Source: Streptomyces sp. NRRL S-337
GTDB taxonomy: Bacteria > Actinomycetota > Actinomycetes > Streptomycetales > Streptomycetaceae
Direction of reading: 5' to 3'
Length of the DNA: 24,778 nt
Assembly (NCBI RefSeq): GCF_000720175.1
Contig: NZ_JOIX01000102.1
Location: forward strand, 1-24,778
The notes beneath the pieces are model-generated. The model did no database searches and had not been told where the DNA came from. It was given only the letters and a program-made list of their open reading frames with translations. This document shows positions 77 through 24,778 of the stretch, piece after piece (positions within the stretch are counted from its first letter, which is position 1; each line of letters opens with the position of its first letter). A program made the translations under genes and the position numbers.

Positions 77-242
77 CCCAGCCCGCCGCAGGCGCAACGA
101 CGAACAACACCCGCGGCGGGACAGACAGCTACGTGCGGGGCGCCGCAAAGCGCAACGGCGAGCAACCCCGACGGCGGGAGAGACGGGTACGTACGAGGCA
201 CCCCCAAGCGCGAGCCCCGCGGCGGGACAGATGGGTACGTGG
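77..242 (+). repeat. 58-bp intergenic tandem repeat, block 1 (one arm)
   Basis: A 15-bp core (CCCAGCCCGCCGCAG, 77-91) is followed by units at 92-149 and 150-207, each exactly 58 bp, and a shortened unit at 208-242 ending in TACGTGG. Each unit reads roughly GCGCAACGGCGA, then CCCGCGGCGGGACAG, then TACGT, then GGCGCCGCAAA. The same core and units recur at 6751-6952 and 24633-24778. The block sits in non-coding DNA before the small gene at 286. Open frames across it, with protein text such as DSYVRGAAKRNGE, are artefacts of the repeat. Bases 47-76 show nothing recognisable. Confidence 0.85.
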
Positions 243-285
243 GGGACACTAGAAGGAACCGTTACCCCCGACAGGAGCCGATCTC

Positions 286-477
286 ATGCCCCGCCTCGCT
301 CTCATGGCCCTTGCCGTGTGTGTTCTTGCCGTTGCCGCTGCCGTCGTTTCCTTCGTGGAGGGCAGCTTCGTGGGGATCGTGTGGGTGTTGCTGGCCGGTA
401 TTTCCAGCAACATGGCGTGGTTCTACGTGCGCAAGGCGAAGATCGAGCGGGAGCAGCAGGCCGCGACCTCCGGCTGA
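286..477 (+). CDS. Small membrane protein, unknown function
   Basis: A 63-residue protein starting at ATG 286, with a good AGGAG ribosome binding site 8 nt upstream. Residues 1-22 form one hydrophobic helix (MPRLALMALAVCVLAVAAAV). A second hydrophobic stretch lies at about residues 25-47, and a charged tail (RKAKIEREQQAATSG) probably faces the cytoplasm, which fits a two-pass membrane protein. I recognise no family. The stop codon lies 1 nt from the stop of the convergent M50 protease gene, so the two transcripts must overlap at their 3' ends. The 58-bp repeat block ends about 45 bp upstream. The ribosome binding site, codon usage and clean membrane profile make it a real gene. A role linked to the neighbouring protease is only a guess. 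Confidence 0.75.
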   Translation: MPRLALMALAVCVLAVAAAVVSFVEGSFVGIVWVLLAGISSNMAWFYVRKAKIEREQQAATSG

Positions 478-478
478 G

Positions 479-1264
479 TCAGGGGAACTGCGGGCCCTGC
501 CAGAAGCGGAAGAGTTCCTGGCCGAAGTAGGTGTCGGGGCGGGAGACGCCCAGGCCGTTCAGGACCGTGTCCACCAGGCCGAAGAAGGCCTGGTTGACCT
601 CGGGGAGCCACAGCAGGGCGAAGACCGCGAGCAGGCCGAAGACCGCGTACGGCTCGATCTGGCGGCGCAGGGCCGGTGGCAGCCAGGGCTTGAGCACGCC
701 GTAGCCGTCCAGGCCGGGGACCGGCAGGAAGTTCAGGATCGTCGCGGTTACCTGGAGCAGCGCGAGGAACGCCAGGGCGAAGCGGAACGCGGCGGGGACG
801 CCGGTGAGTCCGTCCAGCCAGAACGGGGCCGTGCAGACCACCGCGAAGGCGGCGTTGGTCAGGGGGCCGGCCGCCGAGATCAGGCTGTGCCGCCAGCGGC
901 CGCGGATGCGGGCGTCCTCGATGTAGACCGCGCCGCCCGGCAGGCCGATGCCGTTCACGATCAGGAAGATCAGCGGCAGGATGATGCTGAGCAGGACATG
1001 GGTGTATTTGAGGGGGTTCAGGGTGAGATAGCCCTTGGCCTCCACCGAGATGTCGCCGCTGTGCAGCGCGGTACGGGCGTGTGCGTACTCGTGCAGACAG
1101 AGCGAGGCCAGCCAGCCGGACGTGACGAACGCGAAGACCGCGACTCCGGTGTGCGTGCCGAGCGTTCCCTTCCATACGGCCCAGCCCGACACCGCGAGGA
1201 CGGCGACGAGCGCGAGGAAGACCGGGCTGATGCGCCGGTCGGCGCGCCGGATGGCGGTGGTCAT
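479..1264 (-). CDS. M50-family membrane zinc metalloprotease (site-2 protease type)
   Basis: A 261-residue integral membrane protein. The zinc motif HEYAH (residues 58-62, the HExxH type) lies in a hydrophobic segment, and the second M50 signature, FLPVPGLDGYG with Asp186, follows at 179-189. Together these provide the two His, the catalytic Glu and the Asp of the site-2 protease fold. About five or six transmembrane segments are visible (15-30, 41-57, 88-105, 128-150, 160-182, 205-220). There is no PDZ domain, so this is the minimal M50 type. Such enzymes cut substrates inside the membrane, commonly anti-sigma factors or signal peptides; the substrate here cannot be told. It starts at ATG 1264 with GGGAG 8 nt upstream, is divergent from the BTAD regulator and convergent with the small membrane protein. 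Confidence 0.88.
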   Translation of the reverse strand: MTTAIRRADRRISPVFLALVAVLAVSGWAVWKGTLGTHTGVAVFAFVTSGWLASLCLHEYAHARTALHSGDISVEAKGYLTLNPLKYTHVLLSIILPLIFLIVNGIGLPGGAVYIEDARIRGRWRHSLISAAGPLTNAAFAVVCTAPFWLDGLTGVPAAFRFALAFLALLQVTATILNFLPVPGLDGYGVLKPWLPPALRRQIEPYAVFGLLAVFALLWLPEVNQAFFGLVDTVLNGLGVSRPDTYFGQELFRFWQGPQFP

Positions 1265-1413
1265 GGTGCGGGCTCCCGGGGACGGTCTCGGCAGGGGCAG
1301 CCCCGACCGTAACCGCGTCGGGGCGGACCGCGCACGGGTGCCGCCGCCACCGGTCGTCGCCCGGAACGGAAACTCGGTGCAAAGCGGCCGCCACCCTGAA
1401 CGACAATGGGCCG
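1265..1413. promoter_or_regulatory. Divergent promoter region, protease / BTAD regulator
   Basis: This 149-bp gap must hold both divergent promoters. It contains an inverted repeat, CCCCGAC (1301-1307) and GTCGGGG (1317-1323), with a 9-nt spacer, which could be an operator. GACAAT at 1402-1407 looks like a -10 hexamer only 6 nt before the GTG of the regulator. That spacing would give a leaderless transcript, which is common in Streptomyces. No convincing -35 box is seen. Confidence 0.35.
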
Positions 1414-4400
1414 GTGCGCTATGGAATTCTCGGCACCGCCCAGGCCGACCGACCCGACGGCACCCCCGTGGCCCTCGGCGGCGCCCGCCTGCGCGCGCTG
1501 CTCACTGCCCTCGCCCTGCGTCCGGGCCGGGCGCTGCCGTCCGAGGCGCTGATCGCCGACGTCTGGGGCATGGATCCGCCCGCCGACGCACCCGGTGCGC
1601 TGCAGGCGCTGGTCGGACGGCTGCGGCGGGCCCTCGGGCACGCCGCGATCGCCTCGGTCGACGGCGGCTACCGGCTGTGCGCCGAGCCCGACGCGGTCGA
1701 TCTGCACCGCTTCGAGCGGCTCACCGCGGACGGCGGCCGGGCGCTCGCCGACGCCGATCCGGGCCGGGCCGCCGACCTGCTGGACGAGGCGCTGGCGCTG
1801 TGGCGCGGCCCGGCCCTCGCCGACCTGCCGGACGCGGGTACCGAGGCGGCCCGCGCGGACAGCCGCCGGCTGGACGCCCAGCGCACCCGCCTCGCCGCCG
1901 ACCTCGCCCTCGGCCGGGCCGACCGGGCGCTGCCCGCCCTGCTCGCGCTGTGCCGGGAGCACCCCCTCGACGAGCCCCTCCAGGCCCTGCGGCTGCGGGC
2001 GCTGCGCGCCGCGGGACGTACCGCGGAGGCCCTGGCCGCCTACGAGGAGATACGCACCGGCCTCGCCGACCGCCTCGGCGCCGACCCGGGCCCGGAGCTG
2101 CGGGCCCTGCACGCGGAGCTGCTGCGGCTCGGCGCGGACGGGCCGGTCGCGGCCGTGGCGGAGGCCCCGGTGCCGCCGTCCCGGCCCGCCGGGCGCGGCC
2201 CCGGCAACCTCCGTGCCCGGCTCACCTCGTTCGTCGGCCGGGACGCCGATCTCGCGGCGATCCGGTCCGATCTGGCCGAACACCGGCTGGTGACCCTGCT
2301 GGGCCCGGGCGGGGCGGGCAAGACCCGGCTGTCGCAGGAGGGCGCGGAGAGCGCCGCCGCGGCCCGGCCGGGGGCCTGGCCGCACGGCGTGTGGCTGGCG
2401 GAGCTGGCGCCGGTGGACGATCCACAGACCGTGCCGGAGGCGGTACTGACCGCGCTGGGCGCCCGCGAGACCGTCGTCCGCGGCACCACCGCCGAGGGCC
2501 TGCGGGCCGCCGCCGACCCGACCGCCCTGGACCCGCTCGGCCGGCTCGCCGAGCACTGCGCGGGACTCCGGATGCTGCTGGTCCTGGACAACTGCGAGCA
2601 TGTGATCGGTGCCGCCGCCGCGCTCGCCGAGCGGCTGCTGGCCGACTGCCCGGGCGTCACTGTCCTGGCCACCAGCCGCGAGCCGCTGGCCGTACCGGGC
2701 GAGGTGCTGCGGCCGGTCGAGCCGCTCCCGGACCCGGTCGCGCTGCGGCTGCTGGCCGACCGGGGCGCCGCCGCCCGCCCCGGCTTCCGGATCGACGACG
2801 ATGTCGCCGCCTGCACCGAGATCTGCCGCCGGCTGGACGGTCTGCCACTCGCCATCGAACTCGCCGCCGCCCGGCTCCGGCTGCTCACCCCCCGCCAGCT
2901 GGCCGACCGGCTCGACGACCGCTTCCGGCTGCTGACCAGCGGCAGCCGGACCGTGCTGCCCCGCCAGCAGACCCTGCGCGCGGTCGTCGACTGGTCCTGG
3001 GACCTCACCGACGAGCCCGAACGGGCGGTGCTTCGGCGGCTGTCCGTCTTCGCCGGCGGCTGCGACCTGGCCGCCGCGGAGGAGGTGTGCGCGGGCGACG
3101 GCGTCGAGGAGTACGAGGTCGCCGGGCTGCTGGGGTCGCTGATCGACAAGTCGCTGGTGGTGGCCGCGCCGGCCGACCAGGGGCGCGGCGTCGGCCGCTC
3201 CGGGGAGGCTCTCCCCGCCAGCCAGATGCGCTACCGGCTGCTGGAGACGGTGGGGGAGTACGCCGCGGAGCGGCTGGACGAGGCGGGCGAGCGGGCCGGT
3301 GCCGAGCGCCGGCACCTCGTCGCCTACCGCGAACTGGCCCGCACCACCGACCCGTTGCTGCGCGGCCCCGGCCAGGGCGCGGCCATGGAGCGGCTGGAGC
3401 TGGAGCACGACAACCTGCGCACCGCGCTGCGCCGGGCGATCGCGGCCGGGGACGAACACGAGGCGCTGTGCCTGGTGCTGTCCCTGCAGTGGTTCTGGTC
3501 GCTGCGCGACCACCGCAGCGACGCCCGCCACTGGGCCACCGCGGCCGGCGAGCTCGGCCCCAACCCCTTTCTGACTCCCGTCGAACCGGCCCCCCCATTG
3601 CACCGGCGCCCCATCGACGCCCCGCCGCCGATGTCCCCCGAGCAGCTGGCCGAGGCCCGCCGCGAGGTCCGCCTGGTGGCGCTGACCAGCCGGGACAGCG
3701 ACATCGAGGCGCTGCGCGACCCGGAGATGCAACGGGAGCTGGCCGGGATGCTCGCCGCCTACCACCCCAGGCTGCCGCAGACCTGCAAGGTGCCCGGTGT
3801 GATGTGGTACTTCGCGGTGCTGCTCACCGGGCGGTTCGACGAGCTGGCGGAGCTGATCGACGGCGCGGTGGCGGCCTGCCGCGGTTACGGCTACGAATGG
3901 GAGCTGGCCTACCTCCTGCAGATGCGCTCCAAGATCTTCAACGACCGGCCCGGCGGACTGGCCCAGGCGTCCCGCGACGCCGACGAGGCGCTGCGGATAT
4001 TCCGCGCCGCCGGCGACGCCTGGGGCGCGGCCGAGGCGCTGTCCGGGCGCGGCGAGTCCCACGAGAAGCGGGGGGCGTACGAACTGGCGGCGCGCGACTA
4101 CCGCGCGGCGATGGTGCACGCCGAGGAGCTGGGTGCGCACGCCCAGACCCTGCTGCTGCGCTGCCGGCTGGGTGCCGTGCTGATCGAGGCCGGCCAGGCG
4201 GAGCCCGGGGAGCGGATGCTGCGTGAGGTGCTGGCCGAGGCCGCGAAGGGCAGCAGCGGCCGGGACACCGAGCCGTTCGCCCGGCTGACCCTCGCCATGT
4301 GGCTGTCGGTGAGCGGGCGGCCGCAGGAGGCGCGGGCCGAACTCCACATGGTGCAGGAGCTGTTCGTGCCGCGCGCCCCGGATCTGTTCGCCGGCGTGGT

Positions 4401-4776: not shown

Positions 4777-4798
4777 CGCGAGCCGGGCGGAGGCTGTT

Positions 4799-4825: not shown

Positions 4826-4830
4826 GTGCG

Positions 4831-5661
4831 TCAGGTCTTCTTGCGGAACTTCGCCACCGCGAGCGGCATGGCGACGGCCGTGATGGCCACCGTCCAGCCG
4901 AGGGTGATCAGCGCCGGGTGCGCCACCGCGCCCTCGCCGTTGAGCAGTGCACGGGCCGCGTCCGCCAGCGTGGAGAGCGGGTTGACCTTGGTGAAGCCCT
5001 CCAGCCAGCCGGGCATCGAGGTCGGCGGGGCGAAGATCGACGAGCCGAACTGCAGCGGCATCAGCACGAGCATCGCCATGCCCTGCACCGCTTGAGGGGT
5101 CTTCACCGAGAGCCCCAACAGGATGAAGATCCACATCAGTGCCGCCCCGAAGGCCGTGGACAGCGCGACCGCGGCGAGGAACTCCAGAGCACTGCCGCGG
5201 ATTTCGAAGCCGAGCAGGAAGCCCATGCCGAGCAGGATCGCGATGGCGACCAGCATCCGGCCGATCTCCACGACGATCTTGGCTATCAGGACCGAGGAAC
5301 GGGCGATGGGCATCGTCCGAAAGCGGTCCATCACGCCCTTGCGGAAGTCCTCGTTGACGCCGGAGCCGACCGCCATGGCGATGTTCATGCCCATCATCGC
5401 CATCATGCCGGGCACCAGCCGCTGGATGTAGTCGGCCTGATGGTCCTTGCCGGCTATCGCGCCGCCGAAGACGTAGGTGAACAGCAGGATGAAGATGACC
5501 GGCATCAGCAGGACGTCGAACATCGACTCCGGGTCCTGCTTGATCTGCAGGGCGTTGCGCCGCACCAGGGCACCGATGTGCCGCAGGTTGCCGCGCAGCC
5601 CGATCCGGCCCTCGTTCGCGCCGGGCTTGGTGAGCGGCGCCGTCATCGTCGCGGCAGTCAT
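4831..5661 (-). CDS. ABC-2 type exporter permease (DrrB-like)
   Basis: A 276-residue ABC-2 permease. After a polar N-terminus (1-45) it has about six membrane segments: around 49-68, 83-103, 129-150, 158-182, 190-210 and 250-268. The NEDFRKGVMDRFRTMPIARS stretch (about 103-122) is the conserved cytoplasmic loop of DrrB-type permeases, thought to contact the ATPase. The protein would form the membrane pore of a drug or metabolite exporter with the ATPase encoded just upstream; ATGA at 5658-5661 overlaps that gene's stop with this start, so they are translationally coupled. The substrate is unknown. The family includes daunorubicin exporters but also many pumps of undefined role. Confidence 0.9.
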   Translation of the reverse strand: MTAATMTAPLTKPGANEGRIGLRGNLRHIGALVRRNALQIKQDPESMFDVLLMPVIFILLFTYVFGGAIAGKDHQADYIQRLVPGMMAMMGMNIAMAVGSGVNEDFRKGVMDRFRTMPIARSSVLIAKIVVEIGRMLVAIAILLGMGFLLGFEIRGSALEFLAAVALSTAFGAALMWIFILLGLSVKTPQAVQGMAMLVLMPLQFGSSIFAPPTSMPGWLEGFTKVNPLSTLADAARALLNGEGAVAHPALITLGWTVAITAVAMPLAVAKFRKKT

Positions 5662-6701: not shown

Positions 6702-6750
6702 GCCAGGGGCCACCGACAACGCACCGACATTCGGCCTACAGGGGTGCCTC

Positions 6751-6952
6751 CCACGTACTTGGCTGTCCCGCCGCGGGTCGTCTCGCCGTTGCGCTTTGCG
6801 GCGCCCCGCACGTGGCTGTCTGTCCCACCACAAACCCAGCCCGCCGCAGGCGCAACGGCGAACAACAACCGCGGCGGGACGGCCAGCAACGTACGCGGCG
6901 CCGCAAAGCGCAACGGCGAGAAACCCCCGCGGCGGGAAAGCCAACTACGTGG
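6751..6952. repeat. 58-bp intergenic repeat, block 2 (large palindrome)
   Basis: This block holds two arms in opposite orientation. The left arm (6751 to about 6832) is in reverse orientation: it starts at the outer end CCACGTA, with a unit boundary at 6794/6795. The centre carries the core CCCAGCCCGCCGCAG (6835-6849). The right arm has one exact 58-bp unit (6850-6907) and a shortened one (6908-6952) ending in TACGTGG. The arms can pair into a long cruciform or RNA hairpin. It lies between panB (before the IS insertion) and the DrrAB-like operon, both on the minus strand, so it probably separates their transcripts. Confidence 0.85.
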
Positions 6953-6960
6953 GCGACTAG

Positions 6961-6978
6961 GGCCTGTCCGGCGGATCA
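6961..6978 (+). repeat. IS terminal inverted repeat, passenger-gene side
   Basis: GGCCTGTCCGGCGGATCA, identical over 18 bp to the opposite end at 8460-8477. The complement of its last three bases (6976-6978) supplies the TGA stop of the passenger gene. Confidence 0.92.
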
Positions 6979-7509
6979 GGGTCGGACCAGGCGGCGGTGG
7001 GGCGGGGATGAGCCGTCGGCGGGGATGGAGCCGCGCGCTGCCAGGACCTCGCCTGTGTCGGCGAACTCCCAGCGGGTCGCATGCTTCCTGTCCTCGCACG
7101 GCCATTCGACACGGACGATAGGGCGGCTCAACAGGCTCTCGAACCAGTCGGCGCACCGTTCCGCGAGCTCCTCGACCGTGCCGGAGGCCCGGAAGAAGCC
7201 ATGCTCCGGCGACTCGTGAAGGTTGAAGAACTGGTCGCAGGCCTTCCCAGCCACCACGTGTGTGCCGTAAAAGTGCACGGCCCACTGGGCAAGCACTAGT
7301 CGGCGCGCCTCATCGAGAAGGCTGATATAGACGAGGAACGACGACTCGTCTTCGGGTCGTCCGACCTGGCTGGGAGCCCACGGCACCCGCCAATCAGCGG
7401 TCCGGGCTCGCAAGGCTGCCAGGAAGGTGAGTTCGGCCTCGCCGAAGTCCCAGGGCTCCTCGCCGTACTCCTCCGGGATCTCGACCTCGAACCAGCTATT
7501 GACGTCCAC
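6976..7509 (-). CDS. Passenger gene in the IS element, unknown function
   Basis: A 177-residue soluble, acidic protein that I do not recognise. It has no membrane segment or signal peptide and is rich in Trp, Glu and Phe. Visible stretches include WDFGEAELTFLAALRA, QWAVHFYGTHVVAGKACDQF and ADWFESLLSRPIVRVEWP. It lies between the transposase stop and the outer inverted repeat, and its own TGA is formed by that repeat, so its C-terminus (about HRRLVRP) may not be native. The GTG start has only a weak ribosome binding site and follows an in-frame TAG belonging to an internal CTAG. Codon use is less GC-biased than the neighbours (AAT, TTT, CTT, TAT, CGA all occur), which suggests a foreign source. 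It is not needed for transposition as far as the family is known. Confidence 0.7.
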   Translation of the reverse strand: MDVNSWFEVEIPEEYGEEPWDFGEAELTFLAALRARTADWRVPWAPSQVGRPEDESSFLVYISLLDEARRLVLAQWAVHFYGTHVVAGKACDQFFNLHESPEHGFFRASGTVEELAERCADWFESLLSRPIVRVEWPCEDRKHATRWEFADTGEVLAARGSIPADGSSPPHRRLVRP

Positions 7510-7518
7510 GGGGTGACT

Positions 7519-7548
7519 CTAGAACCACCATGTCTCTCGCGGATCACA
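7519..7548. repeat. Possible relic inner IS end
   Basis: CTAG (7519-7522) is followed at about 7531-7546 by TGTCTCTCGCGGATCA. This resembles the terminal repeat segment TGTCCGGCGGATCA except for two extra bases and a changed middle. It lies at the transposase stop, where a normal-length IS would end. It may be the ancestral end that was bypassed when the passenger was captured. Confidence 0.4.
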
Positions 7549-8206
7549 AGCGGAGCCATAGGCGGATTGCCGCGGTGGTGACGGTGCCGTGGACGACGTA
7601 AGCCCGCTTGTCGTAGCGGGTGGCGACGGCTCGGGAGTTCTTGAGCCGATTGATGGTGCGCTCGACCTCGTTGCGGCGTTTGTAGATCTCGCTGTCGAAG
7701 CCGATGGGCCGGCCGCCCTTGCTGCCGCGCCGTTTGCGGTTGGCCCGCTGGTCCTTCGGTTCGGGGATGGTGTGCTTGATCTGGCGTCTTCGCAGGTAGC
7801 AGCGGTTGCGGCGTGAGCTGTATGCCTTGTCGCCGCCGAGGTAGTCCGGCCGCGTGCGAGGCCGTCCGCCCTTCGGGCGGGGAACGCGGATACGTTCGAG
7901 GACCTCGATCATCTGTGGTGCGTCGCCCCACTGGCCGGGCGTGATCAGGAACGCAAGAGGGCGGCAGCCGCCTTCACCTGCGAGGTGGATCTTGCAGGTC
8001 AGACCGCCCCGGGACCGTCCGAGTCCTTCGTCGGGGCGGTGGTGCCGGGGCGTTGTTCTTTTTTCGGGACGCGTGGCTTCTTCTATCGGGCCCCGGCCGC
8101 GTGCTGATGGGCACGGGAGGACGTCGAGTCGACGCCAACCATGCTCCAGTCGATCCGGCACGCGAGGTCGGCGTCGGCCTGGAGGGCACGCAGGATCCGG
8201 TCCCAC
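7544..8206 (-). CDS. IS5-family transposase, C-terminal part (orfB)
   Basis: This frame holds the second half of a DDE transposase. GRSRGGLTCKIHLA opens the catalytic core, YLGGDKAYSS carries the second Asp, and YKRRNEVERTINRLK carries the catalytic Glu in the usual IS5 Y-R-E signature. It ends RLWLRL, the normal C-terminus. The family-like sequence starts near 8115; the frame upstream to 8206 is open but does not look native. It must be joined to orfA by a -1 frameshift in the overlap (8083-8206). GGGGCCC just before the orfA stop is a possible slip site. An A6 run near 8059-8064 lies downstream of that stop and cannot serve. Whether the shift is programmed or a mutation cannot be decided here. 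All three catalytic residues are present. Confidence 0.85.
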   Translation of the reverse strand: MGPDPACPPGRRRPRVPDRLEHGWRRLDVLPCPSARGRGPIEEATRPEKRTTPRHHRPDEGLGRSRGGLTCKIHLAGEGGCRPLAFLITPGQWGDAPQMIEVLERIRVPRPKGGRPRTRPDYLGGDKAYSSRRNRCYLRRRQIKHTIPEPKDQRANRKRRGSKGGRPIGFDSEIYKRRNEVERTINRLKNSRAVATRYDKRAYVVHGTVTTAAIRLWLRL

Positions 8207-14559: not shown

Positions 14560-14561
14560 CC

Positions 14562-16423: not shown

Positions 16424-16436
16424 GCCCGTCCGTCCC

Positions 16437-18458
16437 CTACGAGCGGTAGCCCAGGATCGTCATCATCCCCGACTCCGAGTGGTAGATGTTGTGGCAGTGG
16501 ACCATCCACAGGCCCGGATTGTCGGCGTCGAAATCGACCGCCAACCGCCGTCCCGGCAGCATGATCGTGGTGTCCTTCCGGGGCCCGCCGTGCGGCAGCG
16601 TGAAGTGGTGCCCGTGCAGATGCATCGGATGCCACATCCGGGTGTGGTTGCGGAAGACGATCCGCACCCGCTCACCGGACCGCACGGGATAGCGCTGGTA
16701 CGGGGAGTACGGCCGGCCGTTGATCGCCCAGTTGTACCGGGCCATGTTGCCGGTGAGGGTCATGTCGATGACGCGGTCGGGGCGGCGCGACGAGAGCCGT
16801 GCGGAGGCGGCCGCCTTGAGGCGGTCCGCGGTCATCAGCCTGCCGCGCAGCTCCCCGGGCCGGTCGGACGGGCCGGGCGCGGCGCCATGCCCGGTCCGCA
16901 GCACCGCCAGCGCGGAACGGTTCCGCTTGCCCTCGGCGAGCGCGGTCAGCGGGAAGACGCCGTCCTCGGCGGTGACCAGGACGTCGTAGCGCTCGCCCAC
17001 CCCGAGCAGCAGCGCGTCCGTCTTGGCGTGCCGTACGGGGTAGCCGTCGGTGTGGGTCACGGTCATCCGGTGGCCGCCGAGCGCGACCCGGTAGGACGTG
17101 TCCCCGGCCGCGTTGATGAACCGGATCCGGATCCGGTCGCCGGGCCGGGCGCGGAAGGTGTGCGGATGCCGGGCGGTACGGCCGTTGATGAGGTGGAACG
17201 GGTGGTCCACCGAGCCCGGGTCGCCCCAGAGCCGCCGGTGCCCGCCGAACAGCCGCCGCGCCGAGCCGTGCTCGTGCCCATGCCCGCGGCCGCGCCCGCC
17301 GCCGTGCCCGTGGTCGCCCTTGCCGTGCCCGTGCCCGTCGTGGCCGTGCCGGGTGGCGGTCCCGCCGCCGCCCTTCCCGTCGTCACCCATGTCCATGCCC
17401 ATGTGGCCCATGCCCCCGCCGTGCCGGCCCGCGCGCTTCAGGAAGGCGGCCAGTACGGCGTCCGGGGTGCGGCCGTCGATCCCGTCGATCCAGTCGTCGA
17501 TCAGGACGACCCATTCCCGGTCGTACGAGAGCGGCTCCCTGGGGTCCTCGACGATCAGCGGCGCGTACAGCCCGCGGTCCAACTGCACGCCGACGTGCGG
17601 ATGCAGCCAGTGCGTACCGGGCTGGTTGACCTTGAAGTGGTAGTCGTAGGAGCCGCCGGGCCGGATGGCCCGCTGGGTGAGGTCCGGGACGCCGTCCATG
17701 TCGTTGCGCACGTGCAGCCCGTGCCAGTGGACGGTGGTGGACTGCGGCAGGTGGTTGTGGAGGGTCAGCGCGATCCGCTCGCCCGCGGTGACCCGGATCT
17801 CCTTGCCCGGCAGTTCGTCGCCGTACGCCCAGGTCCTGACGGTCCGGCCGCCGCCCAGGTCGAGCCGGGTCGCGGCGGCGGTCAGGGTGAAGTGCCGGAC
17901 GGGTCCCGTGCCGCGCTCGCGCTCGCACTTGGCCACCTCGGGGCCGTCCGGGGTGACATAGCCCCGCGGGGGCCTCCCGCCGGAACCACCACCGCCGTGG
18001 GAGCCGTGCGTGCCAGGGGAATCGTGGGTGTCATGCGTGCCGTGGGAGCCGTGCGCGTCATGGTCCTTGTGGGTGCTATGAGGTGCCGGGCTGCCGGCCG
18101 CGCCGTGCAAGCCGTGGGAGCCGTGCGCGCTCGGGGACGTGTGGGGGCGGCGGGAGGGGTGGGAGCCGTACAGACCGGCCTTGAGGTCCGGGCCGGAGCC
18201 CGTGTCCGGCGTGCCGCAGGCGGCCAGCAGCCCGCTGCCGGCGACCGCGGCCCCCGCGCCGAGCAGGGCGCGTCGCGAGGGCGTCCGCGGGCCGGCGGGC
18301 CGAGCGTCGTCCGGCGCATCGGACCGGTCTTCCGGCCGTCCGTTTGACGGGCCTTTTGACGGGCCTTCCCAGAGGCCGCCCGACGGGCGTTCCGACGGGC
18401 GTTCCGACGGGTCACCGGACGGGTCATCGTGCAGGGCAGGGCGCTGCGAATCGCGCAT
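16437..18458 (-). CDS. Tat-exported multicopper oxidase lipoprotein, histidine-rich (copper tolerance)
   Basis: A 673-residue multicopper oxidase. All four copper-binding signatures are present: HWHG (244-247), HWLHPH (283-288), HPMHLHGH (610-617) and HCHNIYHSESGM (654-665), the last giving type-1 ligands Cys655, His660 and Met665. Residues 61-81 form a twin-arginine signal (SRRALLGAG) ending in the lipobox LAAC with Cys81, so the enzyme should be exported folded and lipid-anchored. Two His/Gly-rich insertions, about 100-155 and 347-398 (HGHDGHGHGKGDHGHGG), probably bind copper. Such enzymes oxidise Cu(I) or phenolic substrates outside the cell. The cytoplasmic tail before the twin arginines is very long (60 residues), partly built from a 12-bp DNA repeat. 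ATG 18458 has GAGGTG upstream; reading frames further upstream are not coding. A CsoR-like operator at 18773 fits copper induction. Confidence 0.93.
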   Translation of the reverse strand: MRDSQRPALHDDPSGDPSERPSERPSGGLWEGPSKGPSNGRPEDRSDAPDDARPAGPRTPSRRALLGAGAAVAGSGLLAACGTPDTGSGPDLKAGLYGSHPSRRPHTSPSAHGSHGLHGAAGSPAPHSTHKDHDAHGSHGTHDTHDSPGTHGSHGGGGSGGRPPRGYVTPDGPEVAKCERERGTGPVRHFTLTAAATRLDLGGGRTVRTWAYGDELPGKEIRVTAGERIALTLHNHLPQSTTVHWHGLHVRNDMDGVPDLTQRAIRPGGSYDYHFKVNQPGTHWLHPHVGVQLDRGLYAPLIVEDPREPLSYDREWVVLIDDWIDGIDGRTPDAVLAAFLKRAGRHGGGMGHMGMDMGDDGKGGGGTATRHGHDGHGHGKGDHGHGGGRGRGHGHEHGSARRLFGGHRRLWGDPGSVDHPFHLINGRTARHPHTFRARPGDRIRIRFINAAGDTSYRVALGGHRMTVTHTDGYPVRHAKTDALLLGVGERYDVLVTAEDGVFPLTALAEGKRNRSALAVLRTGHGAAPGPSDRPGELRGRLMTADRLKAAASARLSSRRPDRVIDMTLTGNMARYNWAINGRPYSPYQRYPVRSGERVRIVFRNHTRMWHPMHLHGHHFTLPHGGPRKDTTIMLPGRRLAVDFDADNPGLWMVHCHNIYHSESGMMTILGYRS
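18322..18429 (-). repeat. 12-bp in-frame minisatellite in the oxidase N-terminus
   Basis: Nine 12-bp units lie in register. Clear copies are GACGGGCCTTTT (18346), GACGGGCCTTCC (18358), GACGGGCGTTCC (18382 and 18394), GACGGGTCACCG (18406) and GACGGGTCATCG (18418); units at 18322, 18334 and 18370 are diverged. They encode four-residue repeats of the type ERPS, GPSK, GDPS in the tail before the Tat signal. Copy number could vary between strains without shifting the frame. Confidence 0.8.
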
Positions 18459-18561
18459 GGAAGAGAGCACCTCGAAACGGTGTCGGTGTGAGCAAGGTCG
18501 GCTGCGGGTCGGCTGACGGGGTTCCGCCGCGGACTCCCGGGGACGTCGGCGGCGGGGCGCG

Positions 18562-18717
18562 CTACCGGGCGCGCGGCACCGACGAGGGGGCGAGGAATAT
18601 GGGGCGCGGCGGCGCGGATATCGGCCACCGGCCGGGCAGCAGACCCGCGCGTACCGTCCCCGTGCACCACGGCAGCCGGCCGCACCACGCGGCGGCGGCC
18701 GTGCCCTGTGCACGCAT
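18562..18717 (-). CDS. Possible small ORF between copper operator and oxidase
   Basis: A 51-codon frame from ATG 18717 with an excellent ribosome binding site (GGGAGG, 6 nt before the ATG), placed just downstream of the copper-type operator and ending about 100 nt before the oxidase start. Most codons (about 45 of 51) end in G or C. The product starts MRAQGTAAAAWCGRLPWCTG, has two cysteines, a mildly hydrophobic N-terminus and a Pro/Arg-rich tail, and matches no family I know. It could be a copper-linked small protein or a regulatory leader peptide. Because high-GC DNA gives GC-rich third positions by chance, it remains tentative. Confidence 0.4.
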   Translation of the reverse strand: MRAQGTAAAAWCGRLPWCTGTVRAGLLPGRWPISAPPRPIFLAPSSVPRAR

Positions 18718-18772
18718 CGCGGACCTCCCGACGAGGACGGCGGACACCGGAGGGGGCCGCCGGTTCGCACCC

Positions 18773-18787
18773 TACCCCCGAGGGGTA
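18773..18787. promoter_or_regulatory. CsoR-type copper operator
   Basis: TACCCC-CGA-GGGGTA is a perfect 6-bp inverted repeat with a 3-bp centre, the form of operator bound by the copper-sensing repressor CsoR in actinobacteria. On the minus strand it overlaps TAGGGT (18774-18769), a likely -10 box pointing to the small ORF and the multicopper oxidase. No csoR gene is in the window, so the repressor would be encoded elsewhere. The remaining gap, 18788-18956, shows no clear element beyond AGGAG before the hydrolase. Confidence 0.7.
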
Positions 18788-18956
18788 TGACCCTCCACCG
18801 GAGCGCCGCCGAACGGGGCGTCGCCCGCCTATCCTTGGCCTTCCCGCCCCACCGGCGGCCCCTGGGCACGTCCGGCGCGGCCGGGAACCCCGTACGGCCG
18901 GCCGGGTCCGCCCGAGCGCCTGGATGTCCGTGACCGGTACAGGAGATCCCCCACCG

Positions 18957-19844
18957 ATGAGCAGCCACCGCCTCCCCACCCCCGGCCGGTTCGTGCGCGT
19001 CGACGGGGTCCCGCTGCACGTCGTGACGGAGGGCTCCGGCCCGCTCTGCGTGCTCAGCGGCGGCCTCGGCATGGCGTGGTTCGACTGGGACGCGGTCGCC
19101 GCGCTGCTCGCCCCCCACCGCACCGTCGTCCGCTTCGACCGCCCCGGCCTCGGGCTCAGCGCCCAGGCGCCCGCGCCGCCCACCCTGGCCGCCGAGGCGG
19201 ACCGGATCGCCCGGCTCCTCGACGCGCTCGGCCACCGCGGCCCGGCCACCGTCGTCGGCCACTCCCTCGCCGGGTTCCACGTCGAGGCGTTCGCCCGGCT
19301 GCACCCGGAGCGCTGCGCCGGAGTCGTCCTCGTCGACGGCAGCATCGAGGAGAACCCGCGACCCCTGCTGCCGCGGGCGGTGCGGACGGCCTGGGCGGGC
19401 GGGGTGGCCGGGGCGCTGTCCGCGGCCGGTCTGCCGCGCGTCCTGGGCCCGGCCGCCCGCCGCCTGGTGGGCCGCGCCTCGACGGTCGGCAGCCATCCGC
19501 CGCACCCCTGGGAGCGGGCCGGCTACCGCACCAGCCGGGTCGCCCGGGCCTGCGTCCTGGAGAACGCCACCTACCCCTACCAGGCCGCCGAACTCGCCGC
19601 GCTGCGCCGGGACCGCCCGATGCCGTCCGTCCCGGTGACGGTCCTGGCGGCCTACGACGGCAGCGAGACCGCCGGCCGGCTGCGCTGGCTGGAGCGGCAG
19701 CGGGCACTGGCCGCGGAGCTCGGCGGGCGGTTCGCCCTCGCCGCGCCCGCGGGCCACCTGGTGATGGCCGACGTCCCGGAATCCGTGGTCCACGCGGTCC
19801 TGGACCTCACCGGCACCGGCCGGGACGCCGCCCCGCTCGCGTAG
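18957..19844 (+). CDS. Alpha/beta-hydrolase
   Basis: A 295-residue alpha/beta-hydrolase fold protein of unknown substrate. The nucleophile elbow VVGHSLAG holds Ser103. DRPGLGLS at 61-68 is the usual loop before it, and LVDGS follows the nucleophile. AAYDGSE near residue 224 is a candidate for the acid residue. The catalytic His is in APAGHLVMADVPE near the C-terminus. No signal peptide is visible, so it should be cytoplasmic. ATG 18957 has AGGAG 11 nt upstream. An in-frame ATG at 18924 is possible, and the longer open frame back to 18708 overlaps the copper operator and is not coding. It is divergent from the oxidase, and whether copper affects it is open. Esterase, lipase and haloperoxidase-like activities are all possible. 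Confidence 0.85.
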   Translation: MSSHRLPTPGRFVRVDGVPLHVVTEGSGPLCVLSGGLGMAWFDWDAVAALLAPHRTVVRFDRPGLGLSAQAPAPPTLAAEADRIARLLDALGHRGPATVVGHSLAGFHVEAFARLHPERCAGVVLVDGSIEENPRPLLPRAVRTAWAGGVAGALSAAGLPRVLGPAARRLVGRASTVGSHPPHPWERAGYRTSRVARACVLENATYPYQAAELAALRRDRPMPSVPVTVLAAYDGSETAGRLRWLERQRALAAELGGRFALAAPAGHLVMADVPESVVHAVLDLTGTGRDAAPLA

Positions 19845-20174
19845 CCCCGTACGGCACCCGCCGCCCCCGCCCGGTCACCACCCGGCAACCGTCGGCGACC
19901 GGCGCGGAACGCCCCGCTCAACAGCTGGTCAACGGCCCCTCAGGGCGGCTTCAAGAGTGGACCAAGCGGGCCGATTGCCGCCGCCGGCTGCGCTGAGCTT
20001 GCTCGCTGCGGGAAAGGATGCGGGAAGGAAGCGGAGCGGGGGTTACGGGTCGACGGTTCTGGTTCAGGCCAAGGGTGCGTAATGTGACGGTAACCCCCTC
20101 ACGTGATACTGGTTGCCACGCGCGTCGTTCGACGTACGTGGACAGGCCGATTGACCTGCAAGGATTGGTGACCC
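19845..20174. promoter_or_regulatory. Regulatory region of glnA2-glnE
   Basis: This 330-bp gap carries the promoter of the glnA2 operon. GATACT (20105-20110) fits a -10 box, with GTGACG (20084-20089) as a weak -35 at slightly short spacing. GTAAT-N6-GTAAC (20079-20094) overlaps the -35 and resembles the paired half-sites bound by GlnR or MtrA in Streptomyces nitrogen genes. An inverted half-site GTTAC is at 20042-20046. AGGA at 20161-20164 is the ribosome binding site. Nothing distinct is seen in 19845-20040. Confidence 0.4.
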
Positions 20175-21536
20175 ATGGACAAGCAGCAGGAGTTTGTGCT
20201 CCGGACGCTGGAAGAGCGCGACATCCGCTTCGTCCGGCTGTGGTTCACCGATGTGCTCGGATTCCTGAAGTCGGTGGCCGTCGCGCCCGCCGAGCTGGAG
20301 CAGGCCTTTGACGAGGGCATCGGTTTCGACGGCTCGGCCATCGAAGGATTCGCCCGGGTGTACGAATCCGACATGATCGCCAAGCCCGACCCCGGCACCT
20401 TCCAGATCCTGCCCTGGCGCGCCGAGGCCCCCGGCACCGCCCGGATGTTCTGCGACATCCTCATGCCGGACGGCTCGCCCTCGTACGCCGACCCCCGGTA
20501 CGTCCTCAAGCGGATCCTGGCGAAGACCTCCGACCTCGGCTTCACCTTCTACACCCACCCCGAGATCGAGTTCTTCCTGCTCAAGGACAAGCCCGTCGAT
20601 GGCTCCCGGCCGATCCCCGGCGACTCCTCCGGCTACTTCGACCACACCCCGCAGAACGTCGGCATGGACTTCCGCCGCCAGGCGATCACCATGCTGGAGT
20701 CGATGGGCATCTCGGTGGAGTTCAGCCACCACGAGGGCGCCCCCGGCCAGCAGGAGATCGACCTGCGGTACGCCGACGCGCTCTCCACCGCCGACAACAT
20801 CATGACCTTCCGGCTGGTCATGAAGCAGGTCGCGCTGGAGCAGGGCGTCCAGGCGACGTTCATGCCCAAGCCGTTCTCCGAGTACCCCGGCTCCGGCATG
20901 CACACCCACCTCTCCCTCTTCGAGGGCGACCGCAACGCCTTCCACGAGTCCGGCTCGGAGTACCAACTCTCCAAGGTGGGACGCTCGTTCATCGCCGGCC
21001 TGCTCAAGCACGCCGGCGAGATCTCCGCCGTCACCAACCAGTGGGTGAACTCCTACAAGCGCATCTGGGGCGGCGCCAACCGCACCGCGGGCGCCGGCGG
21101 CGAAGCACCCTCGTACATCTGCTGGGGCCACAACAACCGCTCCGCCCTGATCCGCGTCCCGATGTACAAGCCCGGCAAGATGGGCTCCACCCGGGTCGAG
21201 GTCCGCTCGATCGACTCCGGCGCCAACCCCTACCTCACCTACGCCGTCCTGCTCGCCGCCGGCCTCAAGGGCATCGAGGAGGGCTACGAGCTGCCCGCCG
21301 GCGCCGACGACGACGTCTGGGCGCTGACCGACTCCGAGCGCCGGGCGATGGGCATCGAGCCGCTGCCGCAGAACCTCGGCGAGGCCATCGAGCTCATGGA
21401 ACGCAGCGAACTCGTCGCCGAAACCCTCGGTGAGCACGTCTTCGACTTCTTCCTCCGCAACAAGAAGCAGGAGTGGGAGGAGTACCGCTCCGAGGTCACC
21501 GCCTTCGAGCTGCGCAAGATGCTGCCCGTGCTCTGA
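20175..21536 (+). CDS. glnA2: GlnA2-type glutamine synthetase homologue (gamma-glutamyl-amine ligase)
   Basis: A 453-residue type I glutamine synthetase fold protein. FDGSAIEGFARVYESDM (51-67), THPEIEFF (127-134), SGMHTHLS (240-247), NRTAGAG near 302 and RVEVRSIDSGANPYL (340-354) are the ATP, metal and glutamate-binding regions. The C-terminal loop that carries the adenylylated tyrosine in regulated GSI enzymes (NLYDLP) is here SERRAMGIEPLPQN (387-400), without tyrosine, so GlnE should not modify it. In Streptomyces the GlnA2 group has been reported to glutamylate polyamines rather than ammonia; that role is carried over from the family. It is followed after 27 bp by glnE, as one operon. The start is supported by AGGA 10 nt upstream. 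Confidence 0.93.
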   Translation: MDKQQEFVLRTLEERDIRFVRLWFTDVLGFLKSVAVAPAELEQAFDEGIGFDGSAIEGFARVYESDMIAKPDPGTFQILPWRAEAPGTARMFCDILMPDGSPSYADPRYVLKRILAKTSDLGFTFYTHPEIEFFLLKDKPVDGSRPIPGDSSGYFDHTPQNVGMDFRRQAITMLESMGISVEFSHHEGAPGQQEIDLRYADALSTADNIMTFRLVMKQVALEQGVQATFMPKPFSEYPGSGMHTHLSLFEGDRNAFHESGSEYQLSKVGRSFIAGLLKHAGEISAVTNQWVNSYKRIWGGANRTAGAGGEAPSYICWGHNNRSALIRVPMYKPGKMGSTRVEVRSIDSGANPYLTYAVLLAAGLKGIEEGYELPAGADDDVWALTDSERRAMGIEPLPQNLGEAIELMERSELVAETLGEHVFDFFLRNKKQEWEEYRSEVTAFELRKMLPVL

Positions 21537-21563
21537 GCCACCGCGCCACCGAGAGGCTGGACC

Positions 21564-24500
21564 ATGGCACTACCCGCTCCGCAGGGACGGCGCAGCAGCA
21601 CGTTCGGCCGGCTGCTGAGACACGGCTTCACCGACCCCTCGGCGGCCGGGGAACTGCTCGACGCCCCCGAACTCGCAGCCGTCCGCGACGACTCGGTCCT
21701 CCTGGAGGCATTCGGCGGCACCGCCGACCCCGACCTGGCCCTGCGGGGCCTGGTCCGGCTGGTGGAGGCGCTGCCGGAGGACGAGCAGCAGGCGCTGCTG
21801 AGCACCCTCGTCGCCGCGAAACCGCTGCGCGACCGGCTGCTCGGCGTCCTGGGCGCCTCCGAGGCGCTCGCCGACCACCTCGCCCGCCACCCCCGCGACT
21901 GGCGGTCGCTGGTCACCTACGAGTCGGTCGATCTGCACCCGACCACCCCCGAGTTCGAGCAGGCGCTCGCCGAGGGCATCTGGGGCGAGCAGGGCGAGGG
22001 CCGGCCCCGCGCCGACGCGCTGCGCGCCGCCTACCGCCGGGCCCTCCTCGGCATCGCGGCCCGCGACGTGTGCGGCACGACGGACGTCGCCGAGGCCGCG
22101 GCGGAACTCGCCGACCTGGCCACCGCCACCGTCCGCGCCGCCCTGCAGATCTCCTACGAAGAGGCGCCCGGCGACGCCGCGGTGTGCCGGCTGGCCGTCA
22201 TCGGCATGGGCAAATGCGGTGGCCGGGAACTGAACTACGTCTCCGACGTCGACGTCATCTTCGTCGCCGAGGCCAAGGACGGCGTCGACGAGGCCAAGGC
22301 ACTGCAGGCCGCGACCCGGATCGCCGCCCGCATGATGCAGCTGTGCTCGGACAACACCGTCGAGGGCACGATCTGGCCGGTCGACGCCAACCTGCGCCCC
22401 GAAGGCCGCAACGGGCCCCTGGTGCGCACCCTCAGCAGCCACCTCGCCTACTACCAGCGCTGGGCCAAGACCTGGGAGTTCCAGGCACTGCTCAAGGCCC
22501 GCCCGATGGCCGGCGACCTCGGCCTGGGCCAGGAGTACGTCGACGCGCTCGCCCCGATGGTGTGGGAGGTGGCCGAACGGGACAACTTCGTCTCCGACGT
22601 CCGCCAGATGCGCCGCAGGGTCGTCGAGAACATCCCCGCGGCGCAGATCGAACGCGAACTCAAACTCGGCCCCGGCGGTCTGCGCGACGTCGAATTCGCC
22701 GTCCAGCTCCTCCAGTTGGTGCACGGCCGCAGCGACGCCACCCTGCGCAGCGCCACCACCCTGGACGCCCTGGCCGCCCTCGCGGCCGGCGGCTACGTGG
22801 GACGTCAGGACGCCGCCGCCCTGGACGCCGCCTACCGCTTCCTGCGCACCCTCGAACACCGCATCCAGCTGTTCCGCCTCCGCCGCACCCACCTGATGCC
22901 CGAGGACGAGGCCGAACTGCGCCGCCTGGCACGCTCGTTGGGACTGCGGACCGAGCCGGTCGACACCCTCCGCAGGGAGTGGAGATGGCACGCCAGGGAG
23001 GTGCGCCGACTGCATGAGAAGCTCTTCTACCGCCCCCTGCTCGATGCCGTCGCCCACCTCGAACCCGGCGAGGCCCGGCTCTCGGCCAAGGCCGCCGGTC
23101 ACCGCCTCGAAGCGCTCGGCTACGCCGACCCGGTGGCCGCACTGCGCCACCTGGAGGCGCTGGCGTCCGGCGTAACCCGTAAGGCCGCCATCCAGCGGAC
23201 CTTGCTCCCGGTGCTGCTCGCCTGGTTCGCGGACTCCGCCGACCCGGACGCCGGGCTGCTCAACTTCCGCAAGGTCTCCGACGCGCTCGGCAAGACCCCC
23301 TGGTACCTCCGGCTGCTGCGCGACGAGGGCGCGGCCGCCGAGAACCTCGCCCGGGTGCTCTCCGCCGGCCGCCTCGCCCCCGACCTGCTCCTCCGCGCCC
23401 CCGAGGCGGTGGCCCTCCTCGGCGCCCCGGACGGCCTCCAGCCCCGCAGCCGCGCCGCCCTGGAACAGGAGGTGCTGGCCGCGGTCGGCCGCGCGGACGG
23501 CGCGGAGGCGGCCGTCGCGGCGGCCCGCGGGGTCCGCCGCCGGGAGATGTTCCGCACCGCCGCGTCCGACGTCATCGGCGCGTACGGCACGGAGTTCAGC
23601 CCCGCCGACACCGACCACGGCCACTCCGTGGACACGGTCGGCGCCGCGCTCTCCGACCTCAACGCCGCCACTCTCGCCGGTGCGCTGCGCGCCGCGGTCC
23701 GCGCGCAGTGGGGCGACACTCTGCCCACCCGCTTCGCGGTGATCGGCATGGGCCGCTTCGGCGGCCACGAGCTGAGCTACGGCTCGGACGCCGACGTCCT
23801 CTTCGTCCACGAACCCCGCGAGGGAGCCGACGAACAGGAGGCCGCCAAGGCCGCCCACGCGGTCGCCAACGAAATGCGCCGGCTGCTCCAACTCCCGTCC
23901 TCCGACCCGCCGTTGCTGATCGACGCGGACCTCCGCCCGGAGGGCCGGACCGGCCCGCTGGTGCGCACCCTCGCCTCGTACGCGGCCTACTACCGGCGCT
24001 GGTCACTGGTCTGGGAGGCACAGGCCCTGCTGCGCGCCGAACCGGTCGCCGGCGACCCCGACCTCGGGCAGCGCTTCATCGAGCTGATCGACCCGCTGCG
24101 CTACCCGGCCGAGGGCCTGGGCGACGAGGCGGTGCGCGAGATCCGCAAGCTCAAGGCCCGGATGGAGTCCGAACGGCTGCCCCGCGGCGCGGACCCCACC
24201 ACCCATGCCAAGCTGGGCCGCGGCGGCCTGAGCGACGTCGAGTGGACGGTCCAGCTGCTCCAGATGCAGCACGGCTGGGAGATCCCCGGCCTGCGCACCA
24301 CCCGCACCCGCGAGGCCCTGTCCGCCGCGCACGCGGCCGGGCTGATCGCCACGGAGGACGCCCAGATACTGGACGAGGCGTGGGTCCTGGCGGCCCGGGT
24401 CCGCAACGCGGTGATGCTCGTACGCGGCCGCCCCGGCGACACGTTCCCGGTCGACGGCCGGGAACTGGCCGCGGTCGGCCGCTACCTCGGCTACGAGGAC

Positions 24501-24632
24501 GGCCTCAGCCGCCGCCCCACCGAAAACGGCCGCGGCAACGAGGTCTCCGGCCGCAGCGGCGAAATGATCGACGACTACCGCCGCATCACACGCCGGGCAC
24601 GTAGCGTCGTGGAGCGGCTCTTCTATTCCTGA
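21564..24632 (+). CDS. glnE: Bifunctional glutamine synthetase adenylyltransferase/adenylyl-removing enzyme
   Basis: A 1022-residue enzyme that adds AMP to glutamine synthetase I when nitrogen is plentiful and removes it when nitrogen is scarce. Two nucleotidyltransferase domains are visible, each with the G-G-x-E-L...S-D-x-D signature. The first starts at Val212 (VIGMGKCGGRELNYVSDVDV, metal Asp228 and Asp230) and is the deadenylylation half. The second starts at Val726 (VIGMGRFGGHELSYGSDADV, Asp742 and Asp744) and is the adenylylation half. Both are followed by DANLRPEGR/DADLRPEGR and a helical GlnD/PII-uridylyltransferase-like domain (GPGGLRDVEF, GRGGLSDVEW). The length fits actinobacterial GlnE. 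GAGAGG lies 7 nt before ATG 21564, and the gene follows glnA2 closely. Confidence 0.96.
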   Translation: MALPAPQGRRSSTFGRLLRHGFTDPSAAGELLDAPELAAVRDDSVLLEAFGGTADPDLALRGLVRLVEALPEDEQQALLSTLVAAKPLRDRLLGVLGASEALADHLARHPRDWRSLVTYESVDLHPTTPEFEQALAEGIWGEQGEGRPRADALRAAYRRALLGIAARDVCGTTDVAEAAAELADLATATVRAALQISYEEAPGDAAVCRLAVIGMGKCGGRELNYVSDVDVIFVAEAKDGVDEAKALQAATRIAARMMQLCSDNTVEGTIWPVDANLRPEGRNGPLVRTLSSHLAYYQRWAKTWEFQALLKARPMAGDLGLGQEYVDALAPMVWEVAERDNFVSDVRQMRRRVVENIPAAQIERELKLGPGGLRDVEFAVQLLQLVHGRSDATLRSATTLDALAALAAGGYVGRQDAAALDAAYRFLRTLEHRIQLFRLRRTHLMPEDEAELRRLARSLGLRTEPVDTLRREWRWHAREVRRLHEKLFYRPLLDAVAHLEPGEARLSAKAAGHRLEALGYADPVAALRHLEALASGVTRKAAIQRTLLPVLLAWFADSADPDAGLLNFRKVSDALGKTPWYLRLLRDEGAAAENLARVLSAGRLAPDLLLRAPEAVALLGAPDGLQPRSRAALEQEVLAAVGRADGAEAAVAAARGVRRREMFRTAASDVIGAYGTEFSPADTDHGHSVDTVGAALSDLNAATLAGALRAAVRAQWGDTLPTRFAVIGMGRFGGHELSYGSDADVLFVHEPREGADEQEAAKAAHAVANEMRRLLQLPSSDPPLLIDADLRPEGRTGPLVRTLASYAAYYRRWSLVWEAQALLRAEPVAGDPDLGQRFIELIDPLRYPAEGLGDEAVREIRKLKARMESERLPRGADPTTHAKLGRGGLSDVEWTVQLLQMQHGWEIPGLRTTRTREALSAAHAAGLIATEDAQILDEAWVLAARVRNAVMLVRGRPGDTFPVDGRELAAVGRYLGYEDGLSRRPTENGRGNEVSGRSGEMIDDYRRITRRARSVVERLFYS

Positions 24633-24778
24633 CCACGTACCTGTCTGCTGCGCCGCGGGGCGCTGCGCTTGGCTGGCCTCCCACGTACCTGGCTTTCCCG
24701 CCGTCGGGGTTGCTCGTCGTTGCGCTTTGCGGCGCCGCGTACGTAGCTGTCTGCGGCGTCGCGGGTCGTCTCGCCGTT
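24633..24778 (-). repeat. 58-bp intergenic repeat, block 3 (cut by window end)
   Basis: The block begins with the outer end CCACGTAC at the very first base after the glnE stop. In reverse orientation it holds a shortened unit (24633-24668), a 57-bp unit (24669-24725) and most of another (24726 onward), running off the window. The first unit contains GCGCC-GCGG-GGCGC (24650-24663), a 5-bp hairpin that may help end the glnE transcript. Confidence 0.85.

Follow-up and report, generated by a model that had tools for sequence, protein, structure and literature searches.

Intergenic palindromic elements of Streptomyces built from 58-bp units: copies at shared sites lose their orthology and adjoining gene ends change fast

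Introduction

A 24,778-nucleotide stretch of Streptomyces sp. NRRL S-337 (contig NZ_JOIX01000102.1 of assembly GCF_000720175.1), which we call the window, carries three intergenic blocks built from the same 58-bp unit. The locus raises the question of what these blocks belong to and how their copies change. Intergenic palindromic repeats are common in bacteria, and their turnover is rarely measurable. An earlier note on the window, made from the sequence alone, described the blocks as a repeat family and proposed that they might be a terminator or insulator, a target of a nucleoid protein, or the product of a non-autonomous element.

We found that the blocks are the outer parts of a larger element. 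It is a defined modular family of non-coding intergenic DNA in which inverted arrays of usually one to three 58-bp units flank a core of about 290 bp, mostly 0.43 to 0.5 kb in all. Copies at sites shared between species lose their orthology and are near linkage equilibrium, and the neighboring coding ends form a zone of fast substitution. We favor, at a probability of roughly 60%, the reading that these are terminator-like palindromes homogenized by frequent, locally mutagenic short-tract conversion; the cause of the conversion and the role in termination are what we infer. Numbers with G, C, and L are our labels for genomes, contigs, and loci.

Results

The unit is present at far more than three places. 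A search of the own genome (a 9.06-Mb draft in 227 contigs) gave 159 matches to a 28-base unit pattern with at most 3 mismatches, compared with 5 for the reversed control. Among the matches listed, at least 15 contigs carry a copy within 400 bp of their start. An exact 23-mer scan reached S. nigrescens HEK616, S. endophytica HNM0140, S. lydicus, and S. sioyaensis. In copies that we read from these four genomes, the unit arrays run in opposite directions around the core, an arrangement that could not be seen from the window. A 22-mer from the tip of the core hairpin matches at 51 places in S. endophytica, 46 of them exactly, and at 65 in S. nigrescens, 64 of them exactly; its control has 0 matches. 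A copy was counted as full when its core match reached 230 bp or more, which excludes partial and core-less copies. The 87 full copies (42 in S. endophytica and 45 in S. nigrescens) are 290 to 643 bp long, with a median of 458 bp. Two units are present in 97 of the 174 arms, one in 52, three in 17, four in 6, five in 1, and none in 1.

An 8-kb comparison covered 62 of the 65 S. nigrescens core sites (three near 8.05 and 8.23 to 8.24 Mb were not included) and all 51 S. endophytica sites. We found 37 sites that are common to the two species with both flanks aligned. The 74 flanks at these sites are 90.6 to 99.2% identical (median, 97.7%). The orthologous cores have a median identity of 89.9%, compared with 89.5% for non-orthologous pairs between the species, and core pairs within one genome are 89.5 and 90.3% identical. 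The ortholog is the best cross-species core match at only 1 of the 37 sites. The core is flipped at 4 of them, and unit numbers differ at 29. No two of the 87 cores are identical. Linkage between variable columns (r2) falls from 0.38 at 1 to 3 bp to 0.13 at 4 to 10 bp, 0.04 at 11 to 30 bp, and 0.015 beyond 80 bp, where 1/n is 0.011. All four allele combinations occur in 759 and 876 of 1,035 column pairs, and 61 of the 67 variable columns are polymorphic in both species, with no fixed difference. We concluded that copies at shared sites lose their orthology and are near linkage equilibrium. Lost orthology, linkage decay, and shared polymorphism are together what frequent short-patch exchange among many copies predicts.

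Part of the same pattern would also follow from saturating mutation at tolerated columns; we ranked local hypermutation alone second. Fast change at tolerant columns would then erase orthology and linkage with no exchange between copies. This explanation fits the near-zero linkage beyond about 30 bp and the fast substitution next to the element described below. It also fits the allele frequencies, which are correlated in the two species (r = 0.48), as is also expected from saturation, and the three or four alleles seen in 16 of 46 high-frequency variable columns. However, 30 of the 46 columns have only two alleles at three or more copies, and the two commonest alleles are a transversion pair in 25 of the 46. 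Linkage is present at 1 to 10 bp, and whole hairpin arms occur in a few compensated versions. Flipped cores and changed unit numbers likewise argue against mutation alone, and we consider this explanation unlikely.

The identity of orthologous flanks rises outward from the element, from 63% in the first 25 bp to 79% in the next 25 bp, 92% after that, and about 96% from there out to 250 bp; the profile includes non-coding flanks and edge uncertainty, and its lower last two bins are alignment ends. We then considered the genes whose stop codons lie flush with the element (n = 29). In their last 60 bp, 15.9% of third positions differ between S. endophytica and S. nigrescens (87 of 547), compared with 4.1% (101 of 2,446) in 130 control genes from the same loci (129 or 130, depending on window length). 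None of 20,000 permutations reached this excess. Gaps are excluded from these values; when gaps are counted as differences, as they are in the first- and second-position values, at 100 to 200 bp, and in the two further species comparisons below, the values are 16.5 and 5.1%. First positions differ at 6.4 versus 2.6%, and second positions have no excess (2.9 versus 3.0%). At 100 to 200 bp, the third positions of the two sets are alike (4.0 versus 3.9%). Convergent control genes (n = 29) gave 7.4%, made up of 15.8% in the 6 with element-like DNA within 150 bp and 5.3% in the 23 without it. The excess over the convergent controls was reached in 21 of 20,000 permutations, and that over the 23 element-free genes in 0 of 20,000. 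In the final 30 bp, the flush genes have a third-position GC of 77% and the controls 88.9%.

Two further comparisons point the same way. Between S. nigrescens and the own genome, 32.0% of third positions differ in 24 genes; the 11 controls differ at 17.7%, and the more interior parts of the 24 genes at 14.2%. Between S. nigrescens and S. lydicus, the values are 40.6% in 7 genes and 21.9% in 19 controls. We concluded that the neighboring coding ends are a zone of fast substitution. Repeat polishing or assembly in public genomes could in principle have created such patterns as an artifact, as half-kilobase repeats are hard to polish and many contigs of the own genome end in them. Against this, the excess between S. 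endophytica and S. nigrescens lies outside the element and falls on third and first, but not second, positions, and the third-position excess recurs in both further comparisons. The scale over which linkage decays is also much shorter than reads. We regard an artifact as very improbable.

None of the 87 full copies lies inside a predicted gene. Convergent gene pairs hold 40 of the 87, compared with 64 convergent pairs among 474 other gene pairs at the same 83 loci (Fisher P = 7e-11), and divergent pairs hold 7 of 87, compared with 90 of 474 (P = 0.013). Among element ends that face a stop codon, 73 of 120 lie 0 to 10 bp after it (median of all, 3.5 bp), versus 0 of 54 among ends that face a start codon (median, 84.5 bp). 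A stop codon is within 20 bp of an end in 72 of 87 copies, and both stops are that close in 22 of the 40 convergent pairs. The earlier note had suggested that many intergenic copies near gene ends would mark a defined family, and the copy counts, the absence from genes, and the stop-flush ends bear this out. A common function of the neighbor genes was rejected. We compared 65 of 72 listed S. nigrescens neighbor proteins (7 were left out, and genes outside a length window were not listed) and obtained 101 Pfam families, none of the 25 shown occurring in more than two of these proteins.

A 493-bp copy is predicted to fold on either strand into a single long arm that branches at its top (-383 and -395 kcal/mol; z scores of -21 and -24). 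The loop of the core hairpin is conserved as GTAAAGCG(N)(C)AGCA, and the stems vary among copies and species with matching, compensating changes. In a set of 30 sequences chosen from 70, 97.6% of 540 cells are paired, and 11 of 18 pairs have changed on both sides. The covariation score is 0.400, compared with 0.096 in shuffles, and 0 of 500 shuffles scored as high. A terminator scan for a GC stem with a T tract found one site with a 20-pair stem on one strand of an S. lydicus copy (L174; shuffle mean, 0.6; standard deviation [SD], 0.9). The scan found four short sites, three of them overlapping, on one strand of an S. nigrescens copy (L293; shuffle mean, 0.5; SD, 0.8). The position fits the suggestion of a terminator or insulator, with stop-flush ends, enrichment between convergent genes, and one site where the element stands in the place at which two relatives have terminator-like hairpins (see below). 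The T-tract scans give termination little support.

A covariance model of the hairpin matches 28 of 392 Streptomyces genomes at an E value of 0.001. Thirteen of the 28, the own genome included, are strong carriers (best E value of 4.6e-14 or lower). Across the class, the model matches 2 of 296 genomes, both of them Streptomyces. Most weaker Streptomyces matches are longer hairpins of 116 to 143 nucleotides (L313, L314, L316 to L319, L321 to L325, and L327). L321 to L325 and L318 share the internal loop (GTAAAGC opposite GCA), identical or nearly so, and have long, variable upper stems, and the hairpins of L321 to L324 lie between the same convergent genes. Five genomes (own, G191, G064, G310, and G175) have some copies in which the core is flanked by this hairpin on both sides. 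In the sibling elements L212, L220, L248, L249, and L256, the core hairpin and its loop are kept, and other flanks, of the CGCTTGGTGGGTGGTG type in several, replace the 58-bp arms; L220, L248, L249, and L256 have two inverted hairpins about 200 to 260 bp apart. An extended tip, with GCTTCGCTTCC...GGAGC inserted before GTAAAGCG or GTGAAGCG, is present in L007, L015, L080, L093, and L249 and is possibly an older form.

A hairpin with a conserved loop might act in the transcript, as a cis-acting or small RNA. An invariant loop flanked by compensated stems speaks for this, as do the longer relatives that share the internal loop exactly or nearly, some of them between convergent genes. However, the core may point either way with respect to the upstream gene (sense in 16 and antisense in 24 of 40 tandem contexts), and it flips at some shared sites. 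Rfam gave 0 matches at the gathering cutoff in the window and none above the cutoff in 13 related loci; one match, to mir-629, was below threshold. Perfect stems could also be obtained by hairpin-templated correction of DNA. We consider an RNA role improbable.

We compared sites with and without the element at two places. The L275 site lies between a DyP peroxidase gene and an AIR-synthase-related gene. In two relatives whose genes are 84 to 88% identical (G064 and G137), it holds no element; 66 and 146 bp with ordinary strong hairpins separate the flank matches. Nothing like these terminator-like hairpins remains beside the element. At the single junction read by eye against an empty site, we saw no target duplication; the relatives' different spacer is absent instead. 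Nine relatives were compared at the second site of L250; four (G191, G137, G064, and G264) have gaps of 80 to 387 bp with no core match, and five (G293, G347, G389, G090, and G086) have more than 1 kb of other DNA. Site 1 of L250 was not used as an empty site because the relatives carry long other DNA there (735 bp in G137). We concluded that in both places the element occupies a position held in other species by a different spacer.

A transposable element could also leave such a picture: dozens of dispersed copies with hairpins and inverted ends (CCCACGTA..TACGTGGG), missing from some relatives at two sites. Such an element, related in kind to repetitive extragenic palindromes (REPs) with their REP-associated tyrosine transposases (RAYTs) or to miniature inverted-repeat transposable elements (MITEs), would owe its spread and renewal to a trans-acting transposase. 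Against this, the Y1 transposase family PF01797 is present in 1 of 11 carriers (the own draft) and in 0 of the other 10, other transposase families not having been searched; a RAYT system was ruled out on this count. Y1 transposase was also found in 2 of 3 added genomes that had not been chosen as carriers. Sites common to different species and the lack of a visible target duplication at the one junction read further argue against transposition, which we think improbable as an account of the family. A non-autonomous element is possible as the source of an ancient spread, but no Y1 partner was found in 10 of the 11 carriers, and the sites examined are shared between species.

Other origins were considered and set aside. 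A phage or plasmid origin was rejected: there was no phage match, and one Streptomyces megaplasmid (BHT-5-2) matched at 6 places with at best 32% query coverage. The units abut with no CRISPR-type spacing, and CRISPR was rejected. A search for tRNA genes found none. An exact 23-mer match in a Planctomycetota metagenome-assembled genome (L083) was set aside, as the 600 bases inspected held no further element sequence. At L386 (G175:C8:10800-14900), the element lies beside a sequence that we take to resemble a serine recombinase gene. In S. nigrescens AP026073.1, a stretch of 1.27 Mb, at about 3.04 to 4.32 Mb, lacks the core hairpin, and a gap that large was reached in 9 of 5,000 random placements of 61 sites. 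This stretch is perhaps a variable part of the chromosome.

The window is contig C102 of the own genome and is broken inside an element at both ends (Table 1). On reading the blocks, we found the coordinates in the earlier note correct to within 1 to 2 bases and its 57- or 58-bp unit spacing and TACGTGG outer edges borne out. Its units stand, but its three blocks are outer parts of the larger element, and CCCAGCCCGCCGCAG, which it took for a core, is the core edge adjoining the arm. The anchor GCGCAACGGCGA, in one case with a single change, is on the plus strand at 92, 150, 6850, and 6908 and on the minus strand ending at 6794; the unit of block 3 ends at 24725 on the minus strand. With at most 1 mismatch, 12-mer unit anchors occur 8 times in the window, compared with a mean of 0.62 and a maximum of 3 in 100 first-order Markov simulations, and 2 of the 8, near 4945 and 23685, fall outside the blocks.

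Table 1. Parts of the three elements in the window and the stop codon that adjoins element 3
Feature	Positions	Strand	Description
Element 1 core hairpin	1..46	+	16-bp perfect stem (1-16/31-46) and loop GTAAAGCGACAGCA (17-30); predicted fold; homologous to the covarying hairpin
Element 1 core, right end	47..91	+	Ends in CCCAGCCCGCCGCAG; left part of core and left arm lie beyond the contig start
Element 1 right arm	92..243	+	58-bp units 92-149 and 150-207; shortened unit 208-243 ending in TACGTGGG
Element 2 left arm	6750..6834	-	Anchor ending at 6794; shortened outer unit starting with CCCACGTA; core-side remnant
Element 2 core edge	6835..6849	+	CCCAGCCCGCCGCAG; remaining core missing
Element 2 right arm	6850..6953	+	Unit 6850-6907; shortened unit 6908-6953
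Stop codon of predicted gene 21564-24632	24630..24632	+	TGA; element 3 follows directly
Element 3 left arm	24633..24778	-	Outer edge CCACGTACC; 57-bp unit 24669-24725; following unit truncated by the contig end; core beyond

Each of the three sites has its counterpart in S. nigrescens. In the case of blocks 2 and 3, a hairpin of G064 or G293 lies a few hundred base pairs from the orthologous flank. Window positions 1 to 92 (G000:C102) match core positions 195 to 286, and the predicted start codon of the next gene, to the right of element 1, is at 286. Element 2 has lost its core, and the orthologous S. nigrescens site (L260, 10680 to 11133) has a full core. The orthologs of element 3 in S. endophytica (L224) and S. 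nigrescens (L261) have cores in opposite orientations. To the right of block 2, positions 6954 to 7700 have no match in the compared loci of other genomes. The open reading frame at 7544 to 7912 resembles what we take to be a transposase fragment, which suggests that a later insertion may adjoin element 2 on that side. A 9-bp periodic repeat (GCCGTGGGAGCCGTGCGTGCC...) at 17994 to 18169 lies outside predicted genes, within a long minus-strand open frame (16437 to 19793).

Discussion

We propose that the element is a bidirectional transcription end between genes, which would keep it in place. The role in termination is suggested by its position and by the hairpins of relatives at one such place. 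The element would double as a fragile site. A foldback, as a hairpin or cruciform, would form at the replication fork or under supercoiling and would often be broken or stall synthesis, for example, through an SbcCD-type nuclease. The repair gap would be filled by copying short patches from copies elsewhere in the chromosome, and synthesis beyond the element edge would be error prone, leaving mutations within about 100 bp. Through such patch copying, the members of the family would stay alike and their variants would be reshuffled, unit numbers would change, and a core would now and then be flipped. The model for the breakage steps is the work on an interrupted palindrome in E. coli (PMC3315005), and in Streptomyces these steps are inferred from it.

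Several points weigh against conversion as the whole explanation. Linkage extends over only about 10 to 30 bp. The usual RecA-dependent conversion tracts are longer than this, so that part of the pattern could be fast mutation. More than two alleles are present in 16 of the 46 high-frequency variable columns. The nearest neighbor of a core is in its own species for 68 of 87 cores, which indicates that exchange between the pools of the two species is incomplete. At coding ends, first and second positions are not clearly above controls when S. nigrescens is compared with the own genome or with S. lydicus, and only 11 genes serve as controls for the own genome, a small set. In the two copies scanned for terminators, matches fall on one strand only and are near the shuffle level in one copy. 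Element-free sites were compared at two places only, and at the second of them five of nine relatives have long other DNA. The gene calls come from a simple script of our own.

We also put forward, more tentatively, a wider form of the conversion reading. The copies may amount to a freely recombining population inside one chromosome, occupying fixed 3'-intergenic sites over long periods and exchanging patches of tens of bases so frequently that orthologs are no more alike than any other copies. The machinery behind the exchange, perhaps a dedicated nuclease recognizing the conserved loop of the hairpin, would also mutate the adjoining gene ends and may substitute the element for ordinary terminators.

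With many fixed sites and near-identical flanks, exchange can be counted directly, and the zone of fast substitution reaches ordinary genes. If the conversion reading is true, the family would offer a natural setting in which to study short-tract gene conversion, the fragility of palindromes, and the ending of transcription in GC-rich bacteria, and it would help explain why draft assemblies break at these places.

In the top-ranked, mostly non-subscription results of a search of literature naming Streptomyces, we found no description of this family. REPs, which have associated RAYTs and occur in composite arrays (bacterial interspersed mosaic elements [BIMEs]), are extragenic palindromes that often lie 3' of genes. 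The present units are likewise extragenic and palindromic, as their predicted folds and absence from genes indicate, but the element is much longer than a REP or BIME, and no Y1 transposase was found in 10 of the 11 carriers searched. The BOX element of Streptococcus pneumoniae (boxA-[boxB]n-boxC; PMC3049150) is also modular and intergenic, with predicted stem-loops and tandem internal modules whose number varies among strains; the arms here likewise vary, from 0 to 5 units. Unlike in BOX, the tandem modules here are the outer inverted arms of a quasi-palindrome of about 0.5 kb that lies flush with stop codons. Copies of the present element at shared sites are no more alike than random copies.

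The BrickBuilt MITE of Porphyromonas gingivalis (PMC4596501) shares spacer-free tandem repeats, an intergenic position, and inverted ends. It has 23-bp repeats and 19 copies, at 49 to 591 nucleotides from genes, whereas the present units are 58 bp and the elements lie mostly 0 to 10 bp from stops. Bidirectional transcript ends in Streptomyces clavuligerus (PMC8269248) resemble the element in a possible role, the ending of transcripts from both sides. They are described as ends found by RNA sequencing and not as a dispersed repeat family. The E. coli palindrome studied with SbcCD (PMC3315005) is, like the element, a long interrupted palindrome that acts as a rearrangement site. It is a single 246-bp site and not a natural family, and we use it as a model for a possible cause. 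Small intergenic palindromic repeat families 3' of genes are known in other bacteria, as a survey of 40 genomes indicates (PMC1590033); what is unusual here is the exchange behavior.

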